DNA of 64,000 bases, taken from Sulfurimonas sp. HSL3-7. Lineage in GTDB: Bacteria; Campylobacterota; Campylobacteria; Campylobacterales; Sulfurimonadaceae. The stretch lies in NCBI RefSeq assembly GCF_039645985.1, contig NZ_CP147919.1, positions 62,001 through 126,000 of the forward strand. Reading direction: 5' to 3'. This document shows positions 4,744 through 22,467 of this stretch, in pieces. A program made the translations under genes and the position numbers. The notes under the pieces are model-generated. The model saw only the letters and a list, made by a program, of their open reading frames with translations. It had not been told where the DNA came from and made no database searches. Every line of letters begins with the position of its first letter. Position 1 is the first letter of the stretch.

Positions 4744-6378
4744 ATGGCTCATGAGAATGCCGGAAAAACAGCACCTTACAGTTTACTCGAAAATATCCCC
4801 CGTTTAATCGCCTCATATTATATGCAGAGACCTGATGTCAATGAGGCAGCGCAGAAGGTGGCTTTCGGCACTTCCGGTCACCGCGGCAGCTCAGTCAAAA
4901 ACAGTTTTAACGAAGACCATATTCTGGCTATTGCCCAGGCGATGTGTGAATACCGCAAATCGGCGGGCATCACCGGAACGCTTTTTATCGGCAAGGACAC
5001 CCATGCACTTTCGACACCCGCGCAATTGACGGCGCTGCAGGTCTGTATCGCCAACGGCGTGCCCTGCAGGATCGCCAAAGATGACGGTTACACGCCGACA
5101 CCCGTGATCTCTTTTACGATCCTTGAGGCCAACAAAAAGGGCGGTGCCCAGTGCGACGGGGTGGTCATTACCCCTTCGCACAACCCCCCTAGCGACGGCG
5201 GGTTCAAGTACAACCCCCCAAACGGAGGCCCTGCCGATACGGATGTTACCAGTGTCATAGAGGAGCGCGCCAACGCCATCTTGAAAAACGGTCTTACCGA
5301 CGTGAAAAAGGTATCGCTGGAGGAGGCGCTAGCAAGCGAACTGCTGCAGGAATATGACTTTATTACCCCGTATGTCAGCGCGCTGAACGAGATCGTGGAC
5401 ATGGATGCGATCAAGGCCTCCGGCCTCAAGATCGGCGTGGACCCGATGGGCGGTTCCGGGATCGCCGTTTATCAGAAGATCAAAGAGGTCTACGGCCTTG
5501 ATATGGAGATCGTTAACGAGAAGGTTGATCCGACATTCTCTTTTATGACCTGCGACCATGACGGCAAGATCCGTATGGACTGTTCCTCCGCTTATGCGAT
5601 GGCATCGCTGATCGCACTCAAAGAGAAGTATGATATCGCCTTCGGCAATGATCCCGATTTCGACCGTCACGGTATTGTCACGCCGAGCGTCGGTCTGATG
5701 AACCCCAACCACTATCTTTCGGTTGCGATCTGGTACCTCTACTCGCACCGCAAAGCGTGGAGCAGCGAGCTCGGCATCGGCAAGACCCTCGTCTCAAGCT
5801 CCATGATCGACCGGGTTGCAGCATCGTTGGGCAGAAAGGTCGTTGAGGTCCCGGTCGGGTTTAAGTGGTTTGTCGACGGGCTTTTCAGCGGCACGCTGGG
5901 CTTTGGCGGCGAAGAGAGCGCGGGGGCTTCGTTCCTGCGCCGGGACGGTTCGGTGTGGTCCACGGATAAGGACGGCATTATTCTCAACCTTCTTGCCGCA
6001 GAGATCACGGTAAAAATGAAAAAAGACCCGGGGACGATCTATCAGGAGTTTGAAGCAGAGTTCGGCAGATCATATTATGCGCGTATTGACGCCCCGGCAA
6101 CGCCGCAGCAAAAAGCGGTACTGAAAAACCTCTCACCGGAGAACATCACCTCCAAGATTATGGCAGGCGAGGCGATAGAGGGAATCTTTACCGAAGCCAG
6201 CGGCAACGGTGCCAAGATCGGCGGCCTGAAGGTGACAACGCAGAACGGATGGTTCGCGGCGCGCCCGTCAGGAACCGAGGATATCTACAAGATCTATGCG
6301 GAGAGTTTTATCTCGGGCGAGCATCTTGAACAGATTCAGCAGGAGGCAAAAGAGATTGTGCTTGCCGCGATCTCTTAG
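4744..6378 (+). CDS. pgm: Phosphoglucomutase, alpha-D-glucose-phosphate specific
   Basis: A 544-residue protein matching full-length bacterial Pgm. It has the N-terminal AFGTSGHRG motif (39-47), the phosphoserine loop ITPSHNPP (about 142-149), the metal-binding DPDFDRHG (about 303-310), the sugar-binding GGEESAG (near 390) and the phosphate-binding [12 protein letters not shown] near the C-terminus. It interconverts glucose 1-phosphate and glucose 6-phosphate, the branch point between glycolysis/gluconeogenesis and glycogen. It is the first gene of a 13-gene plus-strand run. All catalytic motifs are present, unlike the degenerate phosphomutase domain encoded at 11954-14458. Confidence 0.96.
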
Positions 6379-6465: not shown

Positions 6466-7461
6466 ATGGCAGTAAAAGCGGCAATTAACGGGACAGGAAG
6501 AATAGGGATGATCGTGGCAAAGATCATCACTTCGCGTGATGATATCGAGCTCGTTGCAATCAATACTACGGCAAAAGCCGATATGCTTGAGTACCTTTTC
6601 AAATATGACAGCGTGCATACGGGCGTGAGCGCCAAAGTGCTGGATGAGAAAACGATCGAGATCAACGGCAAAAAAGTGGCCATGTTCAGCACGCGCGATC
6701 CCGAAGAGCTTGATTTCGGTTCAGCCGGAGCGGAAGTCGTGATCGAGTGTACGGGTGTCTTCCTGACAACCGAAAAAGCGCAGTCGTATCTCAAGAACGG
6801 CGTTAAAAAGGTCGTTATGTCGGCCCCGGCCAAAGATGATACGCCGACCTATGTACTGAATATCAATACCGATGCGTACAAAGGCGAAGACATTATCTCC
6901 AACGCCAGCTGTACCACCAACTGTCTCGCACCGATCTGTAAAGTCCTGGATGACGCATTCGGCATTGACAACGGCCTGATGACGACCATCCACTCCTACA
7001 CGAACGACCAGAATATTCTCGATGTCAAACACAGCAAAGATATGCGTCGTGCCCGTGCTGCAGCGGTGAATATGATCCCGACAACAACGGGAGCCGCCAA
7101 GGCGATCGGAAAGGTGATGCCGCACCTTCAGGGCAAATTGAACGGCTATGCGATGCGTGTTCCGACCCCGGATGTATCGGTCGTCGATCTGACGGTCAAT
7201 CTTAAAAAAGAGGTCACCAAAGAGGAGATCAATGCCGCATTTGACGTTGCAGCAGCAGGGAACTTTGCCGGACTGATCGAGATCGACAACGACAAGCGCG
7301 TATCGAGCGACTTTGTCGGTTCGACCTACAGCGCTACCTATGTACCGGATATGACCAGCGTTGTCGATGGCAAAACGGTAAAAGTTCTTGCCTGGTATGA
7401 CAATGAATGGGGATACAGCAGCCGCCTGGTCGATATGTGTGTTTTTGTCGGACAGAACTAA
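6466..7461 (+). CDS. gap: Glyceraldehyde-3-phosphate dehydrogenase, type I
   Basis: A 331-residue Gap with the Rossmann start INGTGRIGMI, the catalytic motif ASCTTNC with Cys149, the basic partner region VNMIPTTTGAAKAIGKV and the C-terminal WYDNEWGYS. It interconverts glyceraldehyde 3-phosphate and 1,3-bisphosphoglycerate and pairs with pgk three genes downstream. An AAGGAGA ribosome-binding site precedes the ATG. The 87-bp gap after pgm is the longest interval in the run and contains a weak hairpin (TTAGAC/GTCTAA near 6377-6399), so an extra promoter or attenuator here is possible. The stop overlaps the pgi start by one base (TAATG). Confidence 0.97.
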   Translation: MAVKAAINGTGRIGMIVAKIITSRDDIELVAINTTAKADMLEYLFKYDSVHTGVSAKVLDEKTIEINGKKVAMFSTRDPEELDFGSAGAEVVIECTGVFLTTEKAQSYLKNGVKKVVMSAPAKDDTPTYVLNINTDAYKGEDIISNASCTTNCLAPICKVLDDAFGIDNGLMTTIHSYTNDQNILDVKHSKDMRRARAAAVNMIPTTTGAAKAIGKVMPHLQGKLNGYAMRVPTPDVSVVDLTVNLKKEVTKEEINAAFDVAAAGNFAGLIEIDNDKRVSSDFVGSTYSATYVPDMTSVVDGKTVKVLAWYDNEWGYSSRLVDMCVFVGQN

Positions 7462-8702
7462 TGCTCAGCTTTGCAAAACATTTCTCTTTTGAACCTGCAT
7501 CAGAACACAAAGGTGTGATGCAGAGCGCCATGGCTGCAGTTAAAGAAGAGATGCAGAGCGATAAGATAGGGTATTATAAACTGCCGTCGCATTCGCTGTC
7601 GCACCTTGAGGCACTAGATGCGATCGATACCAGCATGTACGAGCAGGTCGTTGTCATCGGTATCGGCGGCTCCTCGCTTGGAAGCAAAGCGATCGACTCT
7701 TTTTTGCGCCCCATCACGCCGGGCGTCAAAGAGGTGCTTTTTTTTGAAAACTCCGACCCCCTTACCATCACGGAGAACCTGGCAAAAGTAGACAAAGAGA
7801 AGGCCGCCTTTTTTGTGATCTCCAAGTCCGGTTCGACGATCGAGACGACATCCATCTTTAAAACGATCATCGCTGCCTGCCGACTCGATCTTGACGGCGC
7901 TGACCGCGACCGTGTCTTTGTGATTACCGATGCTAACTCGCCGCTCTCTGCATTTGCTTCGCATCACCGTCTTAGAGAATTTATTATCCCCGATAATGTC
8001 GGCGGACGCTTTTCGGTGCTCAGTGCAGTCGGCGTTGTGCCGCTTCAGGTAGCGGGTTATGATATGCAGGGCGTACTGGAGGGTGCCGGCAGTTTTATAG
8101 AACGTTTTTTCCAGGGCAGGGAAGACCACCTTCTGGAAAAAGCGTGCTATCTGTATGAAAATGCAGCGCAGCAGAACATCAACGTACTCTTCTCCTATGC
8201 CGACCGCCTTGAGAATTTTACAAAGTGGTATGTCCAGCTTTGGGGTGAATCGCTTGGCAAGATCGACAGCGAAAACAACAGCGTGGGGCTCACCCCAATC
8301 GGGATCATCGGTGCAGTCGATCAGCACTCTTTTTTGCAGCTTGTCATTCAGGGCCCCAAAGACAAGAGTGTGACCTTTGTCAAGATCGGAGATTTTGATA
8401 ACGATCTTATGATCCCCGATCTCTCGCTCTATGGCATTGAAAAGACCGATTTTATCAACGGCAAAAGCTTCAACACCCTTATCAATGCCCAGTGCGATGC
8501 GACCATGCAGAGCGTTATCGCATCCGGCGCTGCCGTAGATGCGATTGCCATCGATAAGGTCTCGGCTGAAAGCATCGGTGCTATTATCGCCTATTACGAG
8601 CTTTTGACCTCCGTGACAGGCTCTATGTTTAAGATCAATACCTATGACCAGCCCGGTGTTGAACTCGGCAAACAGATGCTTTACCAAAACCTATCGAAAT
8701 AA
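7461..8702 (+). CDS. pgi: Glucose-6-phosphate isomerase
   Basis: A 413-residue protein of the shorter bacterial Pgi class. The family signatures GIGGSSLGS (near 65-75), SKSGST (near 114-120) and WGESLGK (near 255-262) are present. It interconverts glucose 6-phosphate and fructose 6-phosphate. The frame is open 18 codons further upstream, inside gap, but the ATG at 7461 overlapping the gap stop (TAATG) gives the natural start MLSFAKHF and implies translational coupling. It lies between gap and the phosphorylase homologue and links hexose phosphates to the glycogen genes. Confidence 0.95.
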   Translation: MLSFAKHFSFEPASEHKGVMQSAMAAVKEEMQSDKIGYYKLPSHSLSHLEALDAIDTSMYEQVVVIGIGGSSLGSKAIDSFLRPITPGVKEVLFFENSDPLTITENLAKVDKEKAAFFVISKSGSTIETTSIFKTIIAACRLDLDGADRDRVFVITDANSPLSAFASHHRLREFIIPDNVGGRFSVLSAVGVVPLQVAGYDMQGVLEGAGSFIERFFQGREDHLLEKACYLYENAAQQNINVLFSYADRLENFTKWYVQLWGESLGKIDSENNSVGLTPIGIIGAVDQHSFLQLVIQGPKDKSVTFVKIGDFDNDLMIPDLSLYGIEKTDFINGKSFNTLINAQCDATMQSVIASGAAVDAIAIDKVSAESIGAIIAYYELLTSVTGSMFKINTYDQPGVELGKQMLYQNLSK

Positions 8703-8711
8703 GGAGAGGTT

Positions 8712-10355
8712 GTGAATCTATTTTCATACGATATCAACAGGAAGTACAGTAAGACGGTCGCTTACTTCTCCATGGAGTTCGCCGTTGACCAGGCGCTGAA
8801 GATCTACGCCGGCGGATTGGGCTTCTTGGCAGGTTCGCACATGCGCAGCGCCTATGACCTCAAACAGAGTGTCATCGGCGTCGGACTGCTGTGGAGTTTC
8901 GGCTATTACGATCAGTCCCGCAATGAAGACCTGACGTTGCGGCCGACGTTCACACGGAAGTTTTACTATTTTCTCGAAGAGCTGCCGGTCAGGGTGACGG
9001 TCAAGGTCCATCATGAGGATGTCGTGGTCAAGGCTTTTTTGCTCCGTCCGGATGTTTTTGGTACGGCGCCGATGATCCTGCTCTCTACCGATACCGATGA
9101 GAATGATTATCTCTCACGAACGATCACGCATAAGCTCTATGACGGCAATGAACGCACCCGTGTCGCCCAGGAGATCATTTTGGGTATCGGCGGGGCCAAA
9201 GTGCTGGCGGCACTGGAGCAAACGGTCGATATCTACCATATGAACGAAGGGCATGCATTGCCTTTGGTCTATGAACTCTATGACCGCTATAAAAATATGG
9301 ATGAGGTCCGAAAACATGTTGTCTTTACCACACACACGCCGGAAGCGGCCGGAAATGAGATCCATAATTTCAATTTCCTGCATGAGATGGGCTTCTTTAA
9401 CGACTTATCACCTGAGACAGCCCGACGGATCAGCGGCTATGAAGAGAATGATGACTTTAGTTTGACGGTGGGTGCGCTTCGCAGTGCAAAGATCGCGAAT
9501 GGTGTCTCCAAAATCCATGGCACGGTTGCCAATGAGATGTGGGTGGATGTCGAAAACCGCTGCGAGATTATCTCGATTACCAATGCGCAGAACAAAAAGT
9601 TCTGGAGGGATAAGACACTGATTCGTGCCCTTGATGAGCATGAAGACTACGAAGTGATCGCCCGTAAAAAACACCTCAAGCGTGTTCTCTTTGATACAGT
9701 TGCCGACCAGACGGGAAAAATGTTTGATCCCGAGGTGCTGACGATCGTATGGGCACGGCGTTTTGCGGAGTACAAGCGTCCGGGTCTGCTTAAATACGAT
9801 TTTGAACGTTTTGTCAGGCTGATCAAGCGTACCGACAGGCCGGTACAGATCATCTGGGCAGGAAAACCCTATCCGACGGACCAGGGAGCGACGGACCTCT
9901 TTAACGAGCTGATCCGTATCAGTCACCACTATAAGAACATGGCGGTTCTGGTGGGGTATGAGCTTGCCCTCTCCCGTCTCTTGAAGCAGGGAAGCGACGT
10001 CTGGCTCAATACGCCGCGGATCACCCGTGAAGCGAGCGGAACGAGCGGTATGACGGCGAGCATGAACGGCTCTATCCACTTCTCTATTGATGACGGGTGG
10101 CATCCGGAGTTCGCACGCGACGGCAAGAACGCTTTTACGATCCCTGCGCTTGACTACGTCCTGTCTGTTGAAGAGCAGGACCGTCTGGACAACCAACATA
10201 TGATGGATATCCTCGAAGAGAGGATCATCCCGACCTATTACGACAGACCCGATGAGTGGGTGAAGATTATGAAAAATGCAATGTCCGATATTGAAGTCGA
10301 TTTTGATTCGGGACGCATGGCGGCGGAGTACTATGACCGCATGTTTACCGTTTAA
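8712..10355 (+). CDS. glgP: Short-form alpha-glucan phosphorylase homologue (GT35) with Thr at the PLP-lysine position
   Basis: A 547-residue protein of the short alpha-glucan phosphorylase family, which normally releases glucose 1-phosphate from alpha-1,4-glucans using PLP. GT35-like landmarks are VAYFSMEFA (16-24), YAGGLGFLAG (32-41), HMNEGHA (near 177), TTHTPEAAGNE (near 207), RRFAEYKRPG (near 353), IWAGKPYP (near 383) and EASGTSGM followed by ASMNG (near 440-453). In characterised phosphorylases the residue after this GTxxM is the lysine that holds PLP; here it is Thr448 (ACG, 10053-10055). So it may be a phosphorylase variant, a non-PLP glucosyltransferase or a glucan-binding pseudoenzyme. 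It has no DUF3417 N-terminal domain. A GGAGAG site precedes a GTG start. Confidence 0.88.
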   Translation: MNLFSYDINRKYSKTVAYFSMEFAVDQALKIYAGGLGFLAGSHMRSAYDLKQSVIGVGLLWSFGYYDQSRNEDLTLRPTFTRKFYYFLEELPVRVTVKVHHEDVVVKAFLLRPDVFGTAPMILLSTDTDENDYLSRTITHKLYDGNERTRVAQEIILGIGGAKVLAALEQTVDIYHMNEGHALPLVYELYDRYKNMDEVRKHVVFTTHTPEAAGNEIHNFNFLHEMGFFNDLSPETARRISGYEENDDFSLTVGALRSAKIANGVSKIHGTVANEMWVDVENRCEIISITNAQNKKFWRDKTLIRALDEHEDYEVIARKKHLKRVLFDTVADQTGKMFDPEVLTIVWARRFAEYKRPGLLKYDFERFVRLIKRTDRPVQIIWAGKPYPTDQGATDLFNELIRISHHYKNMAVLVGYELALSRLLKQGSDVWLNTPRITREASGTSGMTASMNGSIHFSIDDGWHPEFARDGKNAFTIPALDYVLSVEEQDRLDNQHMMDILEERIIPTYYDRPDEWVKIMKNAMSDIEVDFDSGRMAAEYYDRMFTV

Positions 10356-10364
10356 GGAGACGAT

Positions 10365-11588
10365 ATGACCTCAAATCTTGATTATATGCGCGGTGTAAAA
10401 AGTCTCAGGGATATTGATGTGAGCGGCAAGCGTGTCTTGATCCGGGTGGACTTCAATGTCCCGGTCGATGCGCACAATAATATCACGGACGACCGCCGCA
10501 TACGTTCGGCATTGCCGACGATCAACTATTGTATCGACCACAACGCCTGTTCCATCACGCTGGTCTCTCACTTCGGACGCCCGAAAGGGCAGTATGAGGA
10601 GAAGTACAGTCTAAAGCATATCCGCAAACGGCTGGAACGCCTGCTGCAAAAAAAAGTTGAATTCGTCGAAGACTTTGAAGCCTCTAAAGACGAGATTGCC
10701 ACCTGCTCGCTCGAACGGGTCTTTCTGCTTGAAAACATCCGTTTTTACGAGGGCGAAAAACAGAACGACCCCGCACTCTCAAAAAAACTGGCCTCTATCT
10801 GTGATGTTTACGTCAATGACGCTTTCGGCGCTTCGCACCGTCAGCATGCCTCGACCTACGGCGTCACAGAATATGTGGAGACCAAGGTGGCCGGTTTCCT
10901 GATGATGCGTGAGATCGAAGCCTTCTCTAAAGCCCTTCAGGAGCCGGTCCGCCCCATTGCCCTGGTCGTCGGCGGGGCCAAGATCTCCTCAAAGATCACA
11001 CTGCTTAAAGCGGTGCTGCAAAAGATCGACAAACTGATTATCGGCGGTGCGATGAGCAATACGTTTTTAAAAGCACTCGGCTACGATATGCAGGCATCGC
11101 TTTATGAAGAGGCCTATATTGAAACGGCGCGCGATGTCCTGGAGATGGCCCGTCAAAACAGCGTCAAGATCTATCTTCCGGTGGATATTGTCATTACGGA
11201 TTCGATAGAGGCACCGGTCGATGTCAAAGTGGTGCCGGCCCAGGATGTGCTGGCCGGGTTCAAAGCCGTCGATATCGGCCCGGCGACGGTGAAACTCTTC
11301 GGTGAAGCGATCGGCCTTTCCAATACGATTATCTGGAACGGCCCGATGGGGATCTATGAGGTGGACAAGTTTTCAAAAGGGACTTTCAAGATCGCCAATA
11401 TCATCGCTGATTCCTACGCCTACACGATTGTCGGCGGCGGCGATACGGCTGATGCGGTGGACCGGGCCTCGGAAGCGGAGAATTTCAGTTTTATCTCTAC
11501 GGGCGGCGGTGCGAGCCTGGAGCTGCTGGAGGGAAAGATACTCCCCGGTTTTAGCAACCTCGATCGCAATTTAGATACAATAGATTAA
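10365..11588 (+). CDS. pgk: Phosphoglycerate kinase
   Basis: A 407-residue Pgk. Substrate-binding residues are seen in RVDFNVPVD (27-35) and SHFGRPKG (near 68-75), followed by VYVNDAFGASHR (near 147-158), the nucleotide site GGAKISSKI (near 203) and the C-terminal GGGDTADAV and STGGGASLELLEG. It carries out the reversible transfer between 1,3-bisphosphoglycerate and ADP. It starts 9 bp after the phosphorylase homologue with an AAGGAGA ribosome-binding site. The C-terminus extends about 12 residues beyond the usual end (SNLDRNLDTID). Confidence 0.97.
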   Translation: MTSNLDYMRGVKSLRDIDVSGKRVLIRVDFNVPVDAHNNITDDRRIRSALPTINYCIDHNACSITLVSHFGRPKGQYEEKYSLKHIRKRLERLLQKKVEFVEDFEASKDEIATCSLERVFLLENIRFYEGEKQNDPALSKKLASICDVYVNDAFGASHRQHASTYGVTEYVETKVAGFLMMREIEAFSKALQEPVRPIALVVGGAKISSKITLLKAVLQKIDKLIIGGAMSNTFLKALGYDMQASLYEEAYIETARDVLEMARQNSVKIYLPVDIVITDSIEAPVDVKVVPAQDVLAGFKAVDIGPATVKLFGEAIGLSNTIIWNGPMGIYEVDKFSKGTFKIANIIADSYAYTIVGGGDTADAVDRASEAENFSFISTGGGASLELLEGKILPGFSNLDRNLDTID

Positions 11589-11953: not shown

Positions 11954-14458
11954 ATGAAAGCAGTCGTTATGGCGGGGGGATTCGGAACACGGATCCAGCC
12001 GCTTACCAACTCCAGACCAAAGCCAATGTTGCCTGTCATCAACCGTCCGATGATGGAGCATACGATGATGACATTGAAAGATCTCGGTATTACCGAGTTT
12101 ATCGTACTGCTTTATTTCAAGCCGGAGATCATTCAAGATTACTTCAAAGACGGAAGTGATTTCGGTATCAAGATCACCTATGTTATTCCGGATGATGACT
12201 ACGGAACGGCCGGTGCCGTCAAATTGGCACAGGAACATATCGGCGATGATAATTTTATCATCATTAGCGGCGATCTGGTGACCGACTTTGATTTTCAGAA
12301 GATCTTCGATTTTCACAAAAAGAGGAAAGCGCAACTCTCTATCGGTCTGACGTCGGTGGACAACCCGCTGCAGTTCGGTGTCGTTATTGCCAACGAAGAT
12401 AATGTTATTGAGAAGTTCCTCGAAAAGCCGAGTTGGGGCGAGGTCTTCAGTGATACGATCAACACCGGTATTTACATCATCGAACCGGAGATCCTTGACT
12501 ACATTCCCGAAGGAAAAAACTTTGATTTTGCCAAAGACCTTTTCCCGCTGCTGATGCAGCAGGAGATACCGCTGATGGGTTACAGTCTTGAGGGGTATTG
12601 GCGCGACGTGGGTAATCCGGAGAGCTATCGCGAGGTCTTTGAAGACATCTTGGGAAACCGTCTCAACTTTGTTATTCCGGGCAAGGCGGTCTCCTGTCCC
12701 GACGGCACGCTTTACAGTGATGTTGCTTACGATCTGGACAAGAGTATCGAGATCATGGGCAATGTCGTACTTGGCAAGAATGTCACGATAGGGAAGAATG
12801 TCAAGCTCAACAATGTTGTCATCGGCGACAATGTAACGATTGGCGAGGGCAGCCACATTCGAAATACGGTCTTCTGGGAAAACATCACGGTGGGCAAAAA
12901 TGCACGCCTTGACAACAGTGTTATCTGCAATGACAACATTATCGGCAAAAACGTGACGGCCAAAGCAGGTCTGATCCTGGCACAAGGGTGCGATATCGGC
13001 GAACTGGTGACCTTTGAGCAGGATGTCACCATCTGGCCCGATAAAAAAGTCGAAGCGGCTTCGATCGTCAGTCATAACCTGATCCTGGGAAGCCGTTACA
13101 AAAACTCCATCTTTGAAAACGGAAGCGTTACGGGTAAAAGCAATGTCGAACTTTCCTGCGAAATGGCGACGAATTTGGGCGAGGCCTTTGCCGCCCAGCT
13201 GCCTGTCGGCTCCAAAGTAGTCGTCGGACGTGACTATGACAAGAGTTCACGCATGCTGAAGAGGGCATTTTTAGGCGGCCTTCTCTCGGCAGGTGTGAAT
13301 GTTGTGGACCTTAAAGGTACGCCGCCGTCCGTATTGCGCTATACGCTGGCCCATGACAGTACGCTTGTAGGCGGTGCCCATTTTAAACAGGATGTCGCCG
13401 ATCCGACCAGTTCGCAGATTACCCTGTTCAACGAAGAGGCGATCCGTATCGATTCGAATTCGGCCAAAGGGATTGAGAAGGCATTTTTTCTCGAACAGTT
13501 CCGACGTGTCGACTACTCCCAGATCGGCGAGATCCATGAGACACTGTACGAAAAAGAGTGCCATGAGTATAAAGCTGCGGTAGAGCAGACGATCGATCAC
13601 GGTGTTATCAAGTGCGGTAATTTTCGCGTTGCCGTCGATCTGATGCACGGCAGTACCGCCGATATTTTTCCCAACATCCTTAATGACCTGGGTGTCGAAA
13701 ATATTGCGCTTAATGCCTATCATGACCATAAAAAACTTTCTAATATTGCCGCCCTTGAAAAACGTTGCGAGGCGAATATCTCTACGATCGTAAGCAGTTT
13801 AGAGTACGACATGGGTGTGATGATCTACCCCAATTCACAACGCCTCAGTATCGTGACCGACGAAGGTGAAATCCTCGATAAGGTCAAGGGATTGCTGATC
13901 GTGTTGAGCCTGTTGAACATGGATACATCAAAAGCGAAAAAGAAGGTTTTCCTGCCGACCTGGGCGCCGGATATCGTCAATTTTGAAAATCTGGAGATCG
14001 AACGCGGCAAGTACGCCAACTTCAAAGCTGCAAAGCTTAGAGAGTACGCCCTTATCGCTACTGTTGACGGCAACTTTGCCTTTACCGAATTCGGCGTCAC
14101 GCGTGACGCCATGTACGCAAGTCTCAAGATAATGGAGCTGGTAAGCTGTCACGGGGTCAAGCTTTCCGAACTCTCCAGCCGCATTGAAGCTTTCCATTAC
14201 AGCTCTATGAAGATAGAGTGCACCCAGGCCCTTAAAGGCAAGATGATGCGCAAATTTCTTGAAGATGCCAAGGGCAAGCATTCCTCATCTCTTGACGGTG
14301 TTAAGATATGGGAAAACGATACCGATTGGATATTGATGATCCCCGATCAATACAGCGACCATCTCAATATCTATATCCAGGCACAGGACAATACCGCTGG
14401 CAAGGCGCTGTACGAGCGTTACAGCGCTAAAATAGCGCAGTGGTCACAAGAAACATAA
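11954..14458 (+). CDS. Sugar-phosphate nucleotidyltransferase fused to left-handed beta-helix and degenerate phosphomutase domain
   Basis: An 834-residue three-part protein. Residues 1-235 are a nucleotidyltransferase with the activator motif MAGGFGTRIQPLT and GYWRDVGNP. Residues about 250-345 form hexapeptide (left-handed beta-helix) repeats such as GNVVLGKNVTIGKNV. Residues about 370-834 are a phosphohexomutase-like domain. Relatives are annotated mannose-1-phosphate guanylyltransferase/phosphomannomutase. The mutase part looks inactive: the phosphoserine loop (TASHNP in active enzymes) is replaced by AHFKQDVADP near 474, and the metal loop DGDADR by YPNSQR at 625-630. As no glgC is in this cluster, the N-terminal part may supply the nucleotide sugar for the two GlgA proteins (inference); the NTP is unknown. 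Confidence 0.85.
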   Translation: MKAVVMAGGFGTRIQPLTNSRPKPMLPVINRPMMEHTMMTLKDLGITEFIVLLYFKPEIIQDYFKDGSDFGIKITYVIPDDDYGTAGAVKLAQEHIGDDNFIIISGDLVTDFDFQKIFDFHKKRKAQLSIGLTSVDNPLQFGVVIANEDNVIEKFLEKPSWGEVFSDTINTGIYIIEPEILDYIPEGKNFDFAKDLFPLLMQQEIPLMGYSLEGYWRDVGNPESYREVFEDILGNRLNFVIPGKAVSCPDGTLYSDVAYDLDKSIEIMGNVVLGKNVTIGKNVKLNNVVIGDNVTIGEGSHIRNTVFWENITVGKNARLDNSVICNDNIIGKNVTAKAGLILAQGCDIGELVTFEQDVTIWPDKKVEAASIVSHNLILGSRYKNSIFENGSVTGKSNVELSCEMATNLGEAFAAQLPVGSKVVVGRDYDKSSRMLKRAFLGGLLSAGVNVVDLKGTPPSVLRYTLAHDSTLVGGAHFKQDVADPTSSQITLFNEEAIRIDSNSAKGIEKAFFLEQFRRVDYSQIGEIHETLYEKECHEYKAAVEQTIDHGVIKCGNFRVAVDLMHGSTADIFPNILNDLGVENIALNAYHDHKKLSNIAALEKRCEANISTIVSSLEYDMGVMIYPNSQRLSIVTDEGEILDKVKGLLIVLSLLNMDTSKAKKKVFLPTWAPDIVNFENLEIERGKYANFKAAKLREYALIATVDGNFAFTEFGVTRDAMYASLKIMELVSCHGVKLSELSSRIEAFHYSSMKIECTQALKGKMMRKFLEDAKGKHSSSLDGVKIWENDTDWILMIPDQYSDHLNIYIQAQDNTAGKALYERYSAKIAQWSQET

Positions 14459-14465
14459 AGGGGGA

Positions 14466-16505
14466 GTGTTGAATCTGAGTTTTGTCTGGCACATGCACCA
14501 GCCTGATTATCGTGATGCATCGGGTGTTATGCAGATGCCGTGGGTCTTTTTACATGCGATCAAAGACTACTACGATATGCCTTGGATGGTTGCACGCCAT
14601 GAAGGCCACAAGGCGACCTTCAACATTACGCCATCGCTGATAGAACAGATAAAGCTCTACTATGACCGTCCGCAGGAACATGACCGCTTCTTAAGCCTGT
14701 GGCTGCAGGACCCCGCCCTGTTGCACGAGGCTGATTGCAAATGGGTGGTCAAGATCTGCAATAGCACCCCTTTTGAGACGATGGTGGCATCGTTGCCGTC
14801 GTATGCGCAGCTTTACCGTAAAGAGGAGTATGAGAATCACGAGCTTCTGGATCTGGAGGTGCTTTTTCTGCTTGCCTGGTGCGGGACCTATCTGCGCAGG
14901 AACAGCTCTCTCGTCGGCGCGTTGATCAAAAAAGAGCGCCACTACAGCCAGGAGGATAAACAGCTTCTTTTGAATGAACTCTCCCGGTTCACAGCGACTA
15001 TTTTTCCTTACTATACGCGGCTGCACCGTCAGGGACGCATCAGTATCTCAACGACACCGCTTAACCATCCGATTCTACCGCTTTTGATGGACATGAATAA
15101 TGCGACAAAAGCCAATGTTTCGACCCAGATCCCCCGACAGCCGATGTCTCTTGAATATGACGCGCTCCAGCAGGTCGAACGGGCCAAAACACTTTTTACA
15201 GAGACCTTCGGTTTTGTACCTGAAGGTTTTTGGCCGGCGGAGGGGGCCGTCGATGAAAAAAGTGTGGGCCTTTTAAAAGAGTGCGGGGTAAAATGGATCG
15301 CTACGGATGAGGTGATCCTGTTCAAATCGCTGGGCTATACGGACCGGGATGCACTCTACACTCCTTACAATTACAAGGGGATGTGCATCGGCTTTCGCGA
15401 TCACGGCCTAAGCGACCTGATCGGTTTTACCTACCGTTTCTGGAATGCGGACAAAGCGGCAGACCACTTTATCGCATCGCTTCTCCCCATCAACGAAGAG
15501 AACCCCGAGAGCACCGTTTTTGTCATTCTCGACGGCGAGAATGCATGGGAGTTCTTCCCCAACAATGCCTTTGACTTTTTTGAGGCGCTCTATACCAGAT
15601 TGGACCATACAGCCTGGTGCCGAACACTTCATATGGATGAGGTTGCCGCACTTGAGGCCAGGCCTCTAGAAAGAGTTGCACCGGGAAGCTGGATCCACGG
15701 CGAGTTCAATACCTGGGTGGGGCATCACGAGAAGACCCGCGGATGGGAGCTGCTCTATATCACCAAACGCGATTATGAACATCATCAGGTTAATCTGGAC
15801 GATGCGACAAAGAGTGCGATAACGAAACACTTTTTGGCGGCGGAATGCTCGGATTGGTTCTGGTGGTACGGTGACGACCATTACACGGAGTTTGGCGCAG
15901 AGTTCGACACCCTGTTCCGCTCGCATCTCATCAGCGTCTATGACCTGATGCATATTGCGCCGCCGTCGGACCTTTTTAAACCTATCATAGAGAACAGAAG
16001 TACGCAGGATTTTTGGCTGCAGCCGCAATCGCCTATCTCGCCGAATGTCGATGGTACCCATGCCTCCTTTTTTGAATGGGTCGGCTGCGGTGTTGTCGAT
16101 GAGAGCAAGCTCTTCTCCACGATGGAGAGGGTGAGGGGACCTGTTCGTAAAATACTCTACGGTCAGGATGACCGTAATCTCTATTTCGCCTTTGATGCGG
16201 ATATGCCACAGCTCAAACAGTGTGACACGCTCCGCATCATTATCGAACCTGTCAAATTTAACGAGATTCTGGCGATCAACCATTGTAATGACGCTCATTA
16301 TGAAGAGAATTTTGATGGTATCGCCCTCGAGGTGGCGTGCCAACAATGGCTGGAAGTGCGTATCGACAAAAGTGAGATAGAAGCTGATAAGGTGCAGTGC
16401 CGTTTTGAACTCTCCGAAGGGAGCCGTGTTCTGCAGACACTGCCGGGATTCGGTGAACTTGAGATTGATCTGCAGACCGATTACAGTGAGAACTGGTTTG
16501 CCTAG
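14466..16505 (+). CDS. GH57 glycoside hydrolase (alpha-amylase/amylopullulanase-like)
   Basis: A 679-residue GH57 enzyme. The first GH57 motif HMHQPDYR is at 9-16, the nucleophile motif GFWPAEGAVDE contains Glu259, and ILDGENAWE contains Asp356 as likely acid/base. Residues beyond about 530 look like a beta-sandwich accessory domain. No signal peptide, so it should act on intracellular glycogen or maltodextrins (hydrolysis, debranching or glucanotransfer). The start is uncertain: GTG at 14466 lies inside the GGGGGAG ribosome-binding sequence, so TTG at 14469 is an equally good choice. It starts 7 bp after the nucleotidyltransferase gene. Confidence 0.88.
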   Translation: MLNLSFVWHMHQPDYRDASGVMQMPWVFLHAIKDYYDMPWMVARHEGHKATFNITPSLIEQIKLYYDRPQEHDRFLSLWLQDPALLHEADCKWVVKICNSTPFETMVASLPSYAQLYRKEEYENHELLDLEVLFLLAWCGTYLRRNSSLVGALIKKERHYSQEDKQLLLNELSRFTATIFPYYTRLHRQGRISISTTPLNHPILPLLMDMNNATKANVSTQIPRQPMSLEYDALQQVERAKTLFTETFGFVPEGFWPAEGAVDEKSVGLLKECGVKWIATDEVILFKSLGYTDRDALYTPYNYKGMCIGFRDHGLSDLIGFTYRFWNADKAADHFIASLLPINEENPESTVFVILDGENAWEFFPNNAFDFFEALYTRLDHTAWCRTLHMDEVAALEARPLERVAPGSWIHGEFNTWVGHHEKTRGWELLYITKRDYEHHQVNLDDATKSAITKHFLAAECSDWFWWYGDDHYTEFGAEFDTLFRSHLISVYDLMHIAPPSDLFKPIIENRSTQDFWLQPQSPISPNVDGTHASFFEWVGCGVVDESKLFSTMERVRGPVRKILYGQDDRNLYFAFDADMPQLKQCDTLRIIIEPVKFNEILAINHCNDAHYEENFDGIALEVACQQWLEVRIDKSEIEADKVQCRFELSEGSRVLQTLPGFGELEIDLQTDYSENWFA

Positions 16506-16514
16506 GAGTTGGTC

Positions 16515-18554
16515 ATGAAAAAAGTCTCTTTGCTGTTGGGTATCCACATGCATCAGCCCGTAGATAATTTCTCTGAAGCGGTGGATGAGGCGATAGCACT
16601 CAGCTACGGACCTTTTTTTGAGACGATGGCAAAGTACCCCGATTTTAAATTTGCCGTACACTGCAGCGGCTGGCTGCTTGAACAGATAAGGAGCAAGCAC
16701 CCCAGGATCTTTTCCGATATGAAGATGTTGACACAAAGAGGGGCCATCGAGTGGATCACCGCAGGCTACTATGAACCCGTGCTCAGTGCCATACCTTCGC
16801 GTGACCGTCAAGCCCAGATCGGAAAGCTTAACAGGTATATCAAAAAACATCTCGGCACTGTGCCTCAGGGATTGTGGCTGACAGAACGGGTGTGGGAGTC
16901 CTCTCTTGTGCCCGATCTTCATGCTTCAGGTATCCGCTATGCGGTCGTCGACGACTATCACTTTTTAAGCAGCGGTTTCGATGCGGCCAAGATGGACGGC
17001 TATTATGAGACTGAAGAGGGGGGCTATCCGCTAGCACTCTTTCCCATCTCGCAACCGCTGCGCTACGCCATCCCGTTTTTCAGTGTGGAACGTTCCATTG
17101 ACGCGATCCTGCAATACGCCAAAGAAGAGGATTCCGCAGCGATTATCTTTGACGATGCTGAAAAGTTCGGTCTCTGGCCGCAGACGCATGAATGGGTATA
17201 CGAGAAAAAATGGCTGGAGGGTTTTGTCGAAGCTGTTTTGGAGCATGAATCGATCGAGACGCAACACTACAGCACCTACCTCGAACAGCAGCGCTCCAAA
17301 GGGATCGCCTATCTGAACAACACCTCCTATTTTGAGATGGGGGAGTGGAGTCTGCGAAGCGAGCAGACGCTTGCGCTTGAAGCGCTCAAAGAGCAGGTAG
17401 GTACCGACTATTTTGATAGGATGGGGGTTGCTTTTATCAAAGGGGGGACCTGGAAGAACTTTTTTGTCAAATACCATGAGAGCAACTACCTTCACAAGCG
17501 GATGCTTTCATACAGTGTGCAGCAGGAGAACCTCAAAAAAAGCGCCCTGGAGAGTCTCTACAAGCTACAGACCAATGATGTCTTCTGGCACGGTGTATTC
17601 GGCGGCCTTTACCTTCCCAACCTGCGTGACAATGCCTACCGTTATCTGCTTGAGATAGAACGGACACAGGCTAAAAAGAAGATAGCCTACAGGGTAGCCG
17701 ACATCGATATGGATGGCTTCGAAGAGCTTAAAGTGCTCTCGAAATCACTCTCGACTGTCTTTTCATGCCGTTGGGGCGGTCAAATGGTGGAGTTTGGTTC
17801 GCTTGATGCCCTTTTCAATTGGCAAAATACGCTGATGCGCCGCAAAGAGGCCTATCACGAAAAGATACTACACCCCAAGGAAGCGCCGACTGTTCAGAAA
17901 GATGAACCGGATGGCGATGCGATTGCGACCATTCACAGCAGCAGCAACCGGATCGATGAGACACTTAAAGCCGGACTGATCTATGACTGGCATCCCAAGC
18001 ACTCGTTTATAGACCATTTCTCGCCCAATCCTTTCGATATGGAGACCTTTAGAAGTGCCTCCTTTCACGAAGCGGGGGATTTTGCGAACCAGCCCTTCGA
18101 ACTCGATGCGCAAACGCACACCTTTACACGAAGCGGCGGAATCCATTTGGACAGAAAACATGCGACCGATCTGACAAAGCGGTACCTGTTTGAAGATGAT
18201 GGCATTACGCTCGATCTTTCCTGTTATTCGGAGTATGAGGGTGAACTCTATTACGGTATGGAGTTCAACCTTCATCTTGCCCATCCGCATCTGGCTCTTC
18301 TCAACGGCCAAAAGATCGGTGAGGGGCTGTGCAGCTCGGGTCTCGATACGCTCAGTATCATCGACACGTTTACGCAGAAAAGAGTAACGCTGACCTGCAG
18401 CCGAATATGTGATGTCAGTGCCTATACGCTCAAGACGGTTTCGCAAAGCGAAAGCGGTTTTGACACGGTAGCGCAGCAGATCTCACTTCTCTTCTCGTGT
18501 CCTTTTAGATCGAAACTGCAACTGAAAATGAAACTGGAGGTATCTGATGTCTGA
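16515..18554 (+). CDS. GH57 4-alpha-glucanotransferase with DUF1925/DUF1926-type C-terminus
   Basis: A 679-residue GH57 protein that parallels the archaeal 4-alpha-glucanotransferases (about 660 residues). It begins KKVSLLLGIHMHQPVDNF, with the nucleophile at Glu124 in WLTERVWE and the acid/base in FDDAEKFGLWP (Asp213/214). These are almost the positions known for the Thermococcus litoralis enzyme (Glu123/Asp214). The C-terminal half corresponds to the DUF1925 and DUF1926 domains. It would transfer maltodextrin segments during glycogen turnover in the cytosol. An upstream in-frame TTG at 16509 is rejected because GGAG at 16505-16508 sits 6 nt before the ATG at 16515. The 3' end overlaps galT by 8 bp. 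Confidence 0.9.
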   Translation: MKKVSLLLGIHMHQPVDNFSEAVDEAIALSYGPFFETMAKYPDFKFAVHCSGWLLEQIRSKHPRIFSDMKMLTQRGAIEWITAGYYEPVLSAIPSRDRQAQIGKLNRYIKKHLGTVPQGLWLTERVWESSLVPDLHASGIRYAVVDDYHFLSSGFDAAKMDGYYETEEGGYPLALFPISQPLRYAIPFFSVERSIDAILQYAKEEDSAAIIFDDAEKFGLWPQTHEWVYEKKWLEGFVEAVLEHESIETQHYSTYLEQQRSKGIAYLNNTSYFEMGEWSLRSEQTLALEALKEQVGTDYFDRMGVAFIKGGTWKNFFVKYHESNYLHKRMLSYSVQQENLKKSALESLYKLQTNDVFWHGVFGGLYLPNLRDNAYRYLLEIERTQAKKKIAYRVADIDMDGFEELKVLSKSLSTVFSCRWGGQMVEFGSLDALFNWQNTLMRRKEAYHEKILHPKEAPTVQKDEPDGDAIATIHSSSNRIDETLKAGLIYDWHPKHSFIDHFSPNPFDMETFRSASFHEAGDFANQPFELDAQTHTFTRSGGIHLDRKHATDLTKRYLFEDDGITLDLSCYSEYEGELYYGMEFNLHLAHPHLALLNGQKIGEGLCSSGLDTLSIIDTFTQKRVTLTCSRICDVSAYTLKTVSQSESGFDTVAQQISLLFSCPFRSKLQLKMKLEVSDV

Positions 18555-19569
18555 GATCCGACGCGACAGGCTTCACAACCAGTACGTGCTTATAGCACCG
18601 GAACGCCTCCGCAGGCCTGACCTGCATGTGAGCAAAAAAGAGGTGCTTTCGGGGCAGCGGTGCCCTTTCTGCGAGGGCAATGAGACACTGACCCCTCCGG
18701 AAATCTATGCTATGCGTGACAATGAGGCGAACAGAGCGGGGTGGAAAACACGTGTCGTCCCCAACCTTTACAAAGCGGTGCAGGTCGAACTTGAAGACAA
18801 GTCCCGCCGGGAGGGGATATTTGAGTCTATTCCCGGCGTCGGTGCCCATGAGGTGCTGATCGATTCCGTCTGCCACGAGTGCGGCATCGAAGGGCTTGGT
18901 GCAGAAGGCATAGAAAACTGGCTGCGCAGCATGATCATACGGATCAACGATCTAAAGCGCGATATGCGTCTGGTGCACTTGAGTATCTTCAAGAATGTCG
19001 GTGCCAATGCAGGTGCGACCCAGGAACATCCCCATACACAGATCCTGGCGCTGCCTGTCACCCCTCAAAACGAACTGCTTTTCCTTGAGCGGAACATGCA
19101 GTATTACCGCCGTCACGGCCGTGGAAAAGCGGAAGATATTGTAGAAAATGAGACAGCGGATAAAAAACGTATTGTCGAAGAGGTAGGCGACTTTGTCGCT
19201 TTTTGCCCTTTTGCGAGCAGTTTTCCGTTTGAGGTCATGATCGTGCCCAAGCGCAATATTGCCAGCCTTGAAGCGTGTTCACGTGATGATGTCGCCGACC
19301 TTTCACTGCTGATCAGAGATCTTTTTCAAAAACTGAAGCGCCAGCTTGGTGATTTTGACTATAATCTCTTTTTCCGCCTGGCGCCGCTCAACCCAAATTT
19401 TGAAAATGAACCCTATATGGCAAATCTGCATACGAACTACCGGTTCACCATACGCATTACCCCGCGTATCTACCGTCTCGGCGGATTCGAGATCGCAACA
19501 GGCATGGCGATCAATCCTGTTCCTCCCGAAGAGTGTGCCGCACTTCTGAACGCCAAAGAGCCCTTATGA
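18547..19569 (+). CDS. galT: GalT-family hexose-1-phosphate nucleotidylyltransferase
   Basis: A 340-residue member of the galactose-1-phosphate uridylyltransferase branch of the HIT superfamily. It has the zinc-binding CPFCEGNE (near 39-46), a GAHEVLID stretch and the catalytic HxHxQ as EHPHTQI (near 160-166), followed by CPFASSFPFEV and HTNYRFT. No galK or galE is in the window. Placed between a glucanotransferase and glgA, it may act on glucose 1-phosphate or a nucleotide glucose (UDP- or ADP-glucose, as some GalT-like proteins do) rather than on galactose. That role is inference. It overlaps its neighbours by 8 and 4 bp, so it is translationally coupled. Confidence 0.85.
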   Translation: MSEIRRDRLHNQYVLIAPERLRRPDLHVSKKEVLSGQRCPFCEGNETLTPPEIYAMRDNEANRAGWKTRVVPNLYKAVQVELEDKSRREGIFESIPGVGAHEVLIDSVCHECGIEGLGAEGIENWLRSMIIRINDLKRDMRLVHLSIFKNVGANAGATQEHPHTQILALPVTPQNELLFLERNMQYYRRHGRGKAEDIVENETADKKRIVEEVGDFVAFCPFASSFPFEVMIVPKRNIASLEACSRDDVADLSLLIRDLFQKLKRQLGDFDYNLFFRLAPLNPNFENEPYMANLHTNYRFTIRITPRIYRLGGFEIATGMAINPVPPEECAALLNAKEPL

Positions 19570-20993
19570 AGGCACTCTTTGCTGCAAGCGAGATCTTTCC
19601 TTTCGCAAAGACAGGCGGCCTGGCCGATGTTGCCCATGCCCTGCCCAGAGCATTGAGCAAACAGCTGGAGATTATCTCGGTCATGCCTCTGTACGGCTTT
19701 ATGCAGAGTGCTTCGCTCTCGAGAGATGAACTGAGTTTTAGCGTCACTCTGGGTTCCATTGAGTACGACATAGCGCTATACACGGCGGAGAATCAGGGGG
19801 TGAAGACTTACTTTATCCAAGCCCCGCTGTTAAGTGCGACGCAGGGACTTTATGGTGATGAAAACGGGGAGTATGCCAACAACGATCTGCGTTTTGGGAT
19901 CTTTTGCGCGGCCATCGTCGAACTGGCGGCAGCGCTGCAGATCGATATCGTGCATCTGAATGACTGGCATACGGCCCTGGCGGCACTCTTTATCAAAGAG
20001 CGCTCTCTTGATATCAAAAGCCTTTTTACGATCCACAATCTTGCCTATCAGGGGATTTTTGAAGCCTCTTCGCTGCAGCGTCTCGGTATTGACAGCCGGT
20101 ATTTTCATATGGACGGCATCGAGTTTTACGGCGCGTTGAACTGCATGAAGGCGGGCATCGCCTACAGCGACCGGGTCACGACGGTCAGCCCCCGGTACGC
20201 CGAAGAGATTTTGACGGCAGAGTTCGGCTGCGGTCTTGAGGGCTTTTTACAGCACCACGCTGCCAAGCTTTCGGGTGTCCTCAACGGTATCGATACCGAA
20301 TATTTTGACCCGAGCAGCGACACGGCACTTGCTTCAGGTTTCGATGCGCATAATCTGGATCTGAAATATTGCAATAAAAAAGCACTGCTCAAGGAGGCGG
20401 GACTCAAAGATCCGAGAGTGCCTCTTTTTGTCATGATCAGCCGGCTGGCGCATCAGAAGGGGTTTGATCTGCTTTTGGAGGCACTAAAACCGATGCTGAA
20501 AAAGCGGCTCAACATACTGATCCTGGTTGAGGGCGTAAACCATTACCGGACAGCACTGGAGAAGATCGCGGAAAAACATGGAAATCTTTGCCTCTTTTTT
20601 GGCTACAATGAAGCACTTTCTCACCGTATCTATGCCGGGGGCGATTTTTTGCTGATGCCCTCGCTTTTTGAGCCTTGCGGGCTCAATCAGATGATCGCAA
20701 TGCGTTACGGAACAGTTCCTGTCGTCCACAGTGTCGGCGGTCTCTTTGATACGGTGCACGAAGATAGCGAAACGTGTGGTACGGGGATCGTTTTTTTAAG
20801 ACCGACCAAAAAAGCACTGCTTAACGCTGTTGAACGTGCGTTGAGCCTCAAAAGCGACGTGCAAAAAATGGAGAAAACCATCCGTTTTAATATGGCATGC
20901 GACTTCTCGTTTGAGAAGAGCGCCAAAGCCTATATAGGGCTCTATAGAGAGCTTCAGCAAGGTTCACTCACAATAAAGGATTATAATGGTTAA
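19566..20993 (+). CDS. glgA: Glycogen synthase, first copy
   Basis: A 475-residue GT5 starch/glycogen synthase. It has the nucleotide-sugar motif FAKTGGLADV (12-21), a DWHTALAALF segment, the GT-B C-terminal domain start FVMISRLAHQKG and the LMPSLFEPCGLNQM motif with the catalytic Glu. It adds glucose from a nucleotide sugar to glycogen. The frame is open upstream, but the ATG at 19566 overlaps the galT stop (ATGA) and gives the canonical MKALFAASEIFPF. Compared with the second copy, the usual LGTG(D/E) segment reads LVEGVNHY, so the two may differ in donor or acceptor preference. Confidence 0.93.
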   Translation: MKALFAASEIFPFAKTGGLADVAHALPRALSKQLEIISVMPLYGFMQSASLSRDELSFSVTLGSIEYDIALYTAENQGVKTYFIQAPLLSATQGLYGDENGEYANNDLRFGIFCAAIVELAAALQIDIVHLNDWHTALAALFIKERSLDIKSLFTIHNLAYQGIFEASSLQRLGIDSRYFHMDGIEFYGALNCMKAGIAYSDRVTTVSPRYAEEILTAEFGCGLEGFLQHHAAKLSGVLNGIDTEYFDPSSDTALASGFDAHNLDLKYCNKKALLKEAGLKDPRVPLFVMISRLAHQKGFDLLLEALKPMLKKRLNILILVEGVNHYRTALEKIAEKHGNLCLFFGYNEALSHRIYAGGDFLLMPSLFEPCGLNQMIAMRYGTVPVVHSVGGLFDTVHEDSETCGTGIVFLRPTKKALLNAVERALSLKSDVQKMEKTIRFNMACDFSFEKSAKAYIGLYRELQQGSLTIKDYNG

Positions 20994-22467
20994 GAAACAA
21001 CTCAATATTTTATTTGTTGCCTCCGAAGTGGTGCCTTTCGCCAAGACAGGCGGTCTGGCCGATGTTTCAGGTGCACTGCCCAAAGCGTTGAAAGAGAGGG
21101 GGCATAATGTCATCGTCGTCATGCCGCGCTACTATCAGATCGACAAAGGTACACTTACCCACGTAGAGGGTTCTTTGGGGGTTCCTATGGGGCCGATGGG
21201 TGAACTTTGGGCAGGCGTCTACACGACGACCCTTCCTGAAAGTGATGCAAGCATCTATTTTATCGATCATGAGCAGTTTTTCGGACGCAGAGGGCTTTAC
21301 GATGACAACGGCGAATCCTACAGCGATAATGATAACCGTTTTATTTTTCTCTCCAAAGCGGCATTCCAGCTTAGCAAAATGCTCGGCTTTTCGCCTGATA
21401 TCATTCATGCAAACGACTGGCATACAGCGGCAATGCCGCTGTTGGCCAGGACCCGTTTCGTACATGATTTCGCCAATGCGGCGACCGTACTGACCATTCA
21501 CAACCTTCAGCATCAGGGGAACTTCTTCAAAGGGGGGATCGATGTGATGGAGGTCGGCTGGGAACACTTCAACCCTATGGAGTTCGAGAGCTTTGACCGT
21601 CTCAATCTGCTCAAGGGAGGGATCGCCCACGCGGACGCGGTCACGACGGTCTCGAAGCGCTATGCCCAAGAGATCCAGACGCCGGAGTTCGGGTTCGGGC
21701 TGCAGGACCATATCCGCGCGCACGCTTCGAAACTCTTCGGTATCCTGAACGGCGTGGACTATGACGAATGGAACCCGTCTGTCGATTCACACATCGCCAA
21801 GAGCTTTGATGTGGGCGATATGGAGGGCAAGCTTGCCTGCAAACGTGCCCTGCAGAACCATTTTGGCCTGGCAGTGCGCGATGATGTGCCGCTTATCGGG
21901 TTTGTCGGACGTTTTGCCGAGCAGAAGGGGATAGGACTGATCGCCGGTGTGCTTGACGGCCTTATGCAGCAGGACCTTCAGATCATCATGCTCGGTACCG
22001 GAGAGAAGTGGGCAGAGCACTACTTCAGCGAAGCGGCGGGCCGTTACAGCGGAAAGTTCGGTATTCATGTCGGCTACTCCGATGCGCTGGCACACCAGAT
22101 CGAAGCGGGGTGCGATCTCTTTTTGATGCCTTCGCTCTTTGAGCCCTGCGGCCTGAACCAGATCTACAGCCTGCGTTACGGTACGCTGCCTATTGTCCGT
22201 GCAACCGGCGGACTCGACGATACGATCGAGAACTTCAACGAAGCGCATCGCAACGGCAACGGTTTCAAGTTCGAGATTCCGACGCAGGAAGCGCTCTACT
22301 ATACAGTGCTCTGGGCGGTCAGTATCTATTATAACGACAAAAACGCCTTTGCTGCCATGCAGGAAAAGGCGATGCAGATGCATTTCGGCTGGGACGATGC
22401 CGCGGCAGAGTATGAAAAGGTCTACCGCTACGCTATCGCCAAACGGCACGTAGAACAGTTACAATAA
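20986..22467 (+). CDS. glgA: Glycogen synthase, second copy
   Basis: A 493-residue GT5 glycogen synthase with FAKTGGLADVSGALP near the start, HANDWHTAAMPL, the C-terminal domain start IGFVGRFAEQKG, LGTGEKWAEHYF and LMPSLFEPCGLNQIYSLRYGT. This copy keeps the canonical LGTG segment and is the more typical of the two. It overlaps the upstream glgA by 8 bp. Tandem but clearly diverged copies point to specialised roles (for example priming and elongation) or to different nucleotide donors, rather than a recent duplication. Confidence 0.95.
   Translation: MVKKQLNILFVASEVVPFAKTGGLADVSGALPKALKERGHNVIVVMPRYYQIDKGTLTHVEGSLGVPMGPMGELWAGVYTTTLPESDASIYFIDHEQFFGRRGLYDDNGESYSDNDNRFIFLSKAAFQLSKMLGFSPDIIHANDWHTAAMPLLARTRFVHDFANAATVLTIHNLQHQGNFFKGGIDVMEVGWEHFNPMEFESFDRLNLLKGGIAHADAVTTVSKRYAQEIQTPEFGFGLQDHIRAHASKLFGILNGVDYDEWNPSVDSHIAKSFDVGDMEGKLACKRALQNHFGLAVRDDVPLIGFVGRFAEQKGIGLIAGVLDGLMQQDLQIIMLGTGEKWAEHYFSEAAGRYSGKFGIHVGYSDALAHQIEAGCDLFLMPSLFEPCGLNQIYSLRYGTLPIVRATGGLDDTIENFNEAHRNGNGFKFEIPTQEALYYTVLWAVSIYYNDKNAFAAMQEKAMQMHFGWDDAAAEYEKVYRYAIAKRHVEQLQ

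Follow-up and report, generated by a model that had tools for sequence, protein, structure and literature searches.

Phosphorylases use PLP through its 5'-phosphate, and borohydride-reduced enzyme stays active, the imine itself being dispensable. In E. coli MalP, the PLP lysine is K646 and the PLP phosphate is coordinated by K534, K540 and K554 (PMC11046441). The closest described relatives of the protein considered here are the TIGR02094 phosphorylases, represented by that of Segatella copri (PDB 9l6i), followed by the TIGR02093 enzymes of family GT35, that is, E. coli MalP and GlgP and muscle glycogen phosphorylase. The window, the whole 64,000-nucleotide stretch of Sulfurimonas sp. HSL3-7 DNA analysed, encodes a protein that is like the TIGR02094 phosphorylases in its whole fold, its glucose- and phosphate-binding residues and its EASGTSG motif, but it is without the PLP lysine, is shorter (547 aa against ~570–870) and belongs to a clade that differs in concert at positions 42, 292–294, 346–347, 386–387, 417, 421, 425 and 475. 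With the TIGR02093 enzymes it has the GT-B fold in common, and MalP residues H346, N450, R535, Y539, K540, E638 and T642 are kept; it is ~250 residues shorter than they are, Thr or Ser stands in place of Lys646 in the clade, and K534 is replaced by Arg, a difference found also in the other TIGR02094 proteins compared. The GlgA glycogen/starch synthase (GT5, 2qzs with ADP) is also alike in its GT-B fold, in having counterparts of E377, R300 and K305 and in a Gly-Tyr pair at 415–416, but the similarity in sequence is weak (35.6 bits against TIGR02095, below the cut-off of 328.45).

The open reading frame has a GTG start codon at 8712 and a stop codon ending at 10355 (Table 1). Its product matches TIGR02094, 'alpha-glucan family phosphorylase', at 441.6 bits, where the cut-off is 191.7, and Pfam Phosphorylase at 45.7 bits, where it is 27; all 22 clade members scanned match TIGR02094. 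The PLP-binding lysine of the GT35 motif E-A-S-G-T-x-x-M-K is absent, and Thr448 aligns with the PLP lysine of MalP (EASGTGNMK), GlgP (EASGTSNMK) and the Segatella copri phosphorylase (EASGTSGEK). A sequence-only reading of the window had already placed Thr448 (ACG) at the lysine position of EASGTSGM-T-ASMNG, and both re-reading and alignment give the same result.

Table 1 Features of the lysine-less phosphorylase gene, its product and its neighbours in the window
Feature	Position	Strand	Detail	Basis
phosphoglucomutase (pgm)	4744..6378	+		
glyceraldehyde-3-phosphate dehydrogenase (gap)	6466..7461	+		
glucose-6-phosphate isomerase (pgi)	7461..8702	+	likely ATG at 7461; mechanical ORF from 7407	
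Shine-Dalgarno-like AAGGAGAGG	8701..8709	+	5' of GTG start	sequence
Lysine-less GT35/TIGR02094 glucan phosphorylase homologue	8712..10355	+	547 aa	TIGR02094 match, AF2 model
NAQN	9582..9593	+	residues 291–294; clade-specific, replaces NGVH after conserved active-site Asn	alignment
Lys319	9666..9668	+	131/131 in clade, His/Arg in Lys types	
RRFAEYK	9756..9776	+	residues 349–355; phosphate-binding R349/R350/K355 = MalP K534/R535/K540, kept	alignment
Lys425	9984..9986	+	131/131 in clade, mostly Val/Ile in Lys types; candidate relocated lysine	
Motif EASGTSGMTASMNG	10029..10070	+	cofactor site, residues 440–453; E440 = MalP E638	alignment
Thr448	10053..10055	+	codon ACG; PLP-lysine position (MalP K646)	sequence, alignment
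phosphoglycerate kinase (pgk)	10365..11588	+		
sugar nucleotidyltransferase / phosphohexomutase fusion	11954..14458	+		
GH57 enzyme	14466..16505	+		
GH57 alpha-amylase/4-alpha-glucanotransferase	16509..18554	+		
GalT-like hexose-1-phosphate uridylyltransferase homologue	18547..19569	+		
glycogen synthase GlgA, first copy	19566..20993	+		
glycogen synthase GlgA, second copy	20986..22467	+		
glycogen branching enzyme GlgB	22476..24401	+		

The alignment that the sequence-only reading had called for finds a residue other than lysine throughout the clade. Among 131 distinct close homologues (~49–100% identical, from Campylobacterota, Bacteroidota and one MAG labelled Halopseudomonas) position 448 is Thr in 99, Ser in 31, Ala in 1 and Lys in none, and the same column is Lys in 43 of 43 more distant bacterial relatives, which include Campylobacterota, Bacteroidota, Pseudomonadota, Actinomycetota, Deinococcota, Chlamydiota and Cyanobacteriota. 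A one-off mutation or a sequencing error at 10053–10055, the latter allowed for in that reading, is therefore ruled out, there being more than 130 homologues without lysine at this site.

In a tree of 108 representatives rooted on E. coli MalP and GlgP, the 73 lysine-less tips group into a single clade (support 0.93) on a long stem of ~0.99 substitutions per site, and the clade is nested among Lys-type proteins, from which it follows that the lysine was lost; a single loss in the ancestry of the clade is the simplest reading. The sister (support 1.0) is a short Lys-type protein, L191, from a Bacteroidota genome (G475), which is like the clade in its short architecture but, unlike it, keeps the lysine. 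Neither the position of the clade within the Lys types nor the lysine of its nearest sister supports an ancestral, pre-PLP enzyme. By parsimony, site 448 changed 17 times afterwards (13 T to S, 3 S to T and 1 T to A), 16 of these changes staying within Thr/Ser, and each of the four Thr codons and six Ser codons is used there. Selection appears to hold a hydroxyl at this position.

Carriers in the Campylobacterota include Sulfurimonas, Sulfurovum, Sulfuricurvum and Sulfurospirillum MAGs, among others, and those in the Bacteroidota include Hymenobacter, Runella and Pontibacter. In 200 Campylobacterota genomes, 16 have only the lysine-less type, 9 have both types, 2 have only the Lys type and 1 has a broken copy. 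This last (G100; loci L126 and L251) is a TIGR02094 gene with in-frame stops, ~31% identical to the window protein. The lysine-less type is present in 26 of 247 Bacteroidota genomes, none of which has a Lys-type TIGR02094 protein, and the Lys type is found in 141 of the other 221, a mutual exclusion that is confounded by shared ancestry. Two genomes, G343 and G434, each have two lysine-less copies and no Lys-type copy. On plasmids (L213, L216, L217 and L214) we also observed a short Lys-type glgP, with open frames of ~570–640 aa, beside DUF1622, BrkB, MgtA or metal-efflux genes, a neighbourhood that resembles a mobile stress island.

The rest of the active site is retained. Invariant in the complete clade sequences, and common with the Lys types, are G34, G35, L36, G37, H208, N291, R350, Y354, K355, E440, G443 and T444, equivalent to MalP G114, G115, L116, G117, H346, N450, R535, Y539, K540, E638, G641 and T642, respectively. 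The GT35 residues for glucose and the substrate phosphate (H208, N291, R350, Y354, K355 and E440) are present in 131/131, and R349 (MalP K534) and Y416 (MalP Y614) in 130/131 each. The residues for glucose, the substrate phosphate and the PLP phosphate are thus 99–100% kept in the clade, in line with the observation in the sequence-only reading that the other phosphorylase motifs are well kept. The K554 column is conserved in neither the lysine-less nor the Lys-type group. About a dozen further positions have changed as a set with 448, among them D42S, G292A, V293Q, H294N, G346V, F347W, A386P, H387Y, A421S and W475F, and in L191 almost every one of them still carries the residue of the Lys types. 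Judged from the alignment, this switch looks like concerted remodelling, not decay. Lysines 319 and 425 are each found throughout the clade, and the Lys-type relatives have them rarely or not at all.

An AlphaFold2 model built with 79 sequences (pLDDT 94, pTM 0.93) has the predicted GT-B fold of glycogen phosphorylase. Its best solved match is the S. copri glycogen phosphorylase 9l6i (Z 35.8, rmsd 2.0 over 535 residues), and it also matches the glucose 1-phosphate complex of E. coli MalP, 1l5v (Z 33.1), and E. coli GlgA with ADP, 2qzs (Z 32.6 over 440 residues). Since these Z values are tied, the fold alone cannot separate a phosphorylase from a synthase, and the choice between the two is decided by sequence. 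The clade shows no greater similarity to GlgA than the Lys types do (hhalign scores of 79.5 and 101.4, respectively), and on this comparison we dropped the idea that it is the more GlgA-like of the two.

A second, normal phosphorylase was not found in a search of the organism's whole 2.87-Mb genome, a single contig, which has no GT35 match besides the window protein. In 40 clade genomes searched with Pfam Phosphorylase, GT35 proteins outside the clade were found only in G242; the lysine-less protein is thus the sole GT35 in 39 of the 40, which makes it the likeliest agent of glucan breakdown. Genomes with the clade vary in their synthesis routes, in a survey where completeness is unstated for many genomes and ancestry is shared among them: some have GlgC, GlgA and GlgB (e.g. 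G252, G335, G339 and G382), others have GlgE and GlgB with no full-length GlgA (G294, G390, G430, G434 and G362, the last also with GlgC), and in G239, G240, G243, G245, G410, G320, G355 and G438 we found no GlgC, full-length GlgA, GlgB over the cut-off or GlgE. All the genomes named in these last two groups have an ORF of ~270–316 aa corresponding only to the N-terminal half of GT5 GlgA (profile positions ~2–220). Hymenobacter is among the carriers in which neither glycogen synthesis route was found. The presence of the clade whatever the synthesis route points to alpha-glucan breakdown as the common need, and on this the case for a phosphorylase-like role chiefly rests. It also leaves unsupported the earlier suggestion that the GH57 enzymes would account for the release of glycogen.

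That reading had put the gene in the middle of a glycogen operon. Its position can be refined: it has pgi on one side and pgk on the other, in a series gap-pgi-gene-pgk that leads into the glycogen genes (Table 1). A second nucleotidyltransferase match, in an 835-aa open frame resembling the fusion protein, occurs outside the window (G000:C1:986701-987699). In 28 of 32 Campylobacterota loci read, the lysine-less gene is within ~8 kb of the glycogen genes seen in the window, in many cases next to pgi or pgk. A Lys-type phosphorylase and the lysine-less gene share one cluster in L243–L245, and in L253, from a genome with the Lys type only, the Lys type adjoins the nucleotidyltransferase, the slot of the lysine-less gene elsewhere. 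In many Bacteroidota the gene is apart from glycogen genes. In Hymenobacter it is near an MFS transporter and two opposite-strand GH13-like genes (neighbours identified by eye), and in other Bacteroidota it has no widely recurring neighbour. A pyridoxamine 5'-phosphate oxidase-family gene follows it by 30 bp in Runella rosea (L211:11642-12082), a possible B6 link, though the family is broad, and a type II glyceraldehyde-3-phosphate dehydrogenase lies near it in Pontibacter actiniarum (L212:8305-9342), echoing the gap neighbour in Campylobacterota.

Our preferred explanation, which we hold tentatively and rate somewhat below an even chance, is that the protein is an active alpha-1,4-glucan phosphorylase without covalent PLP, which works instead with a non-covalently held phosphate ligand that touches Thr/Ser448, PLP being the likeliest candidate. 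Glucose and Pi would be bound as in a classical phosphorylase through H208, N291, Y354, R350, K355 and E440. The PLP pocket would keep its phosphate-binding end (R349, G443 and T444) and be occupied by the ligand, most likely PLP itself, whose phosphate would act as general acid/base, with the hydroxyl of Thr/Ser448 touching it in place of the imine. Glycogen or maltodextrin would be shortened and glucose 1-phosphate passed to the products of the adjacent pgm and pgi. Catalysis, its direction, the identity of the ligand and the role of the hydroxyl are here what we infer. Because phosphorylase uses the phosphate of PLP and can dispense with the imine, loss of the lysine is compatible with catalysis, as long as the pocket retains a phosphate ligand. 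In view of the nine Campylobacterota genomes with both types, the lysine-less protein cannot be taken as a mere equivalent of the classical enzyme, and the clade-specific residues A292, Q293, V346, W347, P386, Y387 and E417 could point to a different ligand. The subfamily with a different chemistry proposed in the sequence-only reading gains a single clade, a site held as Thr/Ser and a set of co-changed positions, although this support reaches only as far as the sequence goes.

The different ligand might be a nucleotide. The protein would then be a PLP-free, nucleotide-dependent GT35 enzyme, in which the pocket binds ADP-, UDP- or another NDP-glucose by its nucleoside end, NDP replaces Pi, and alpha-1,4-glucan is made or degraded. 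Thr/Ser448 is eight residues after E440, where other retaining GT-B enzymes have the second Glu of their EX7E motif. The lysine is lost but neither phosphate subsite is, the GlgA–ADP complex is also close in fold, and in profile comparison E440, R350 and K355 align with GlgA E377, R300 and K305. G415-Y416 of the clade corresponds to the invariant G354-Y355 of GlgA, where the Lys types mostly have D/N before Tyr, and the operon contains sugar nucleotidyltransferase and GalT-like genes. PLP has, moreover, been proposed to stand in for the NMP of a nucleotide-sugar-dependent GT35 ancestor (Chem Rev 2024; PMC11046441). We nevertheless consider this enzyme unlikely: the clade profile is not the more GlgA-like, its nesting among Lys types means that it is not the ancestral form, two GlgA are already present in the window operon, and the protein is also found where neither GlgC nor full-length GlgA was. 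The broader proposition that a GT35 lineage gave up PLP altogether, with NDP, NDP-glucose or another phosphate ligand in its pocket, we regard as rather doubtful. AcbS of acarbose synthesis was rejected as a precedent for a PLP-less GT35 enzyme, as it belongs to GT5 (PMC9200736).

The invariant K319 and K425, where Lys types have His/Arg and Val/Ile, raise a more conventional explanation, an ordinary PLP-dependent phosphorylase whose Schiff-base lysine has moved to one of them; K425 is predicted to lie in the helix after Y416, the counterpart of MalP Y614. Neither, however, is known to reach the PLP aldehyde, and a moved lysine does not by itself explain the constancy of Thr/Ser at 448, which makes this reading improbable. 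The glucan-binding or regulatory pseudoenzyme of the glycogen operon considered in the sequence-only reading, here taken as catalytically dead, has in its favour the loss of the cofactor lysine and the Lys-type enzyme alongside it in the nine Campylobacterota genomes. It is disfavoured by catalytic and phosphate-binding residues that are invariant across ~50% divergence, by the protein often being the only GT35 present and by its location away from glycogen genes in many Bacteroidota, and we give it equally little weight.

Our search of the open-access literature for PLP-independent or lysine-less GT35 proteins, with most subscription papers outside its reach, found no paper describing the clade. 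On Bacteroidota plasmids, at least two named copies of the lysine-less gene are annotated simply as glgP, alpha-glucan family phosphorylase, with the result that ordinary phosphorolysis with PLP is taken for granted in metabolic reconstructions. Why glycogen phosphorylase uses PLP, and solely via its phosphate, is a long-standing question. The alignments suggest that many sulfur-oxidising Campylobacterota and some Bacteroidota have an altered cofactor arrangement in their phosphorylase, and a natural clade without the PLP lysine, with the rest of the site kept and as the sole GT35 in many genomes, would allow a direct test of the role of the cofactor. If the clade proved to be PLP-free and nucleotide-using, it would be a reversal of the nucleotide-to-PLP step proposed in the ancestry of phosphorylase.
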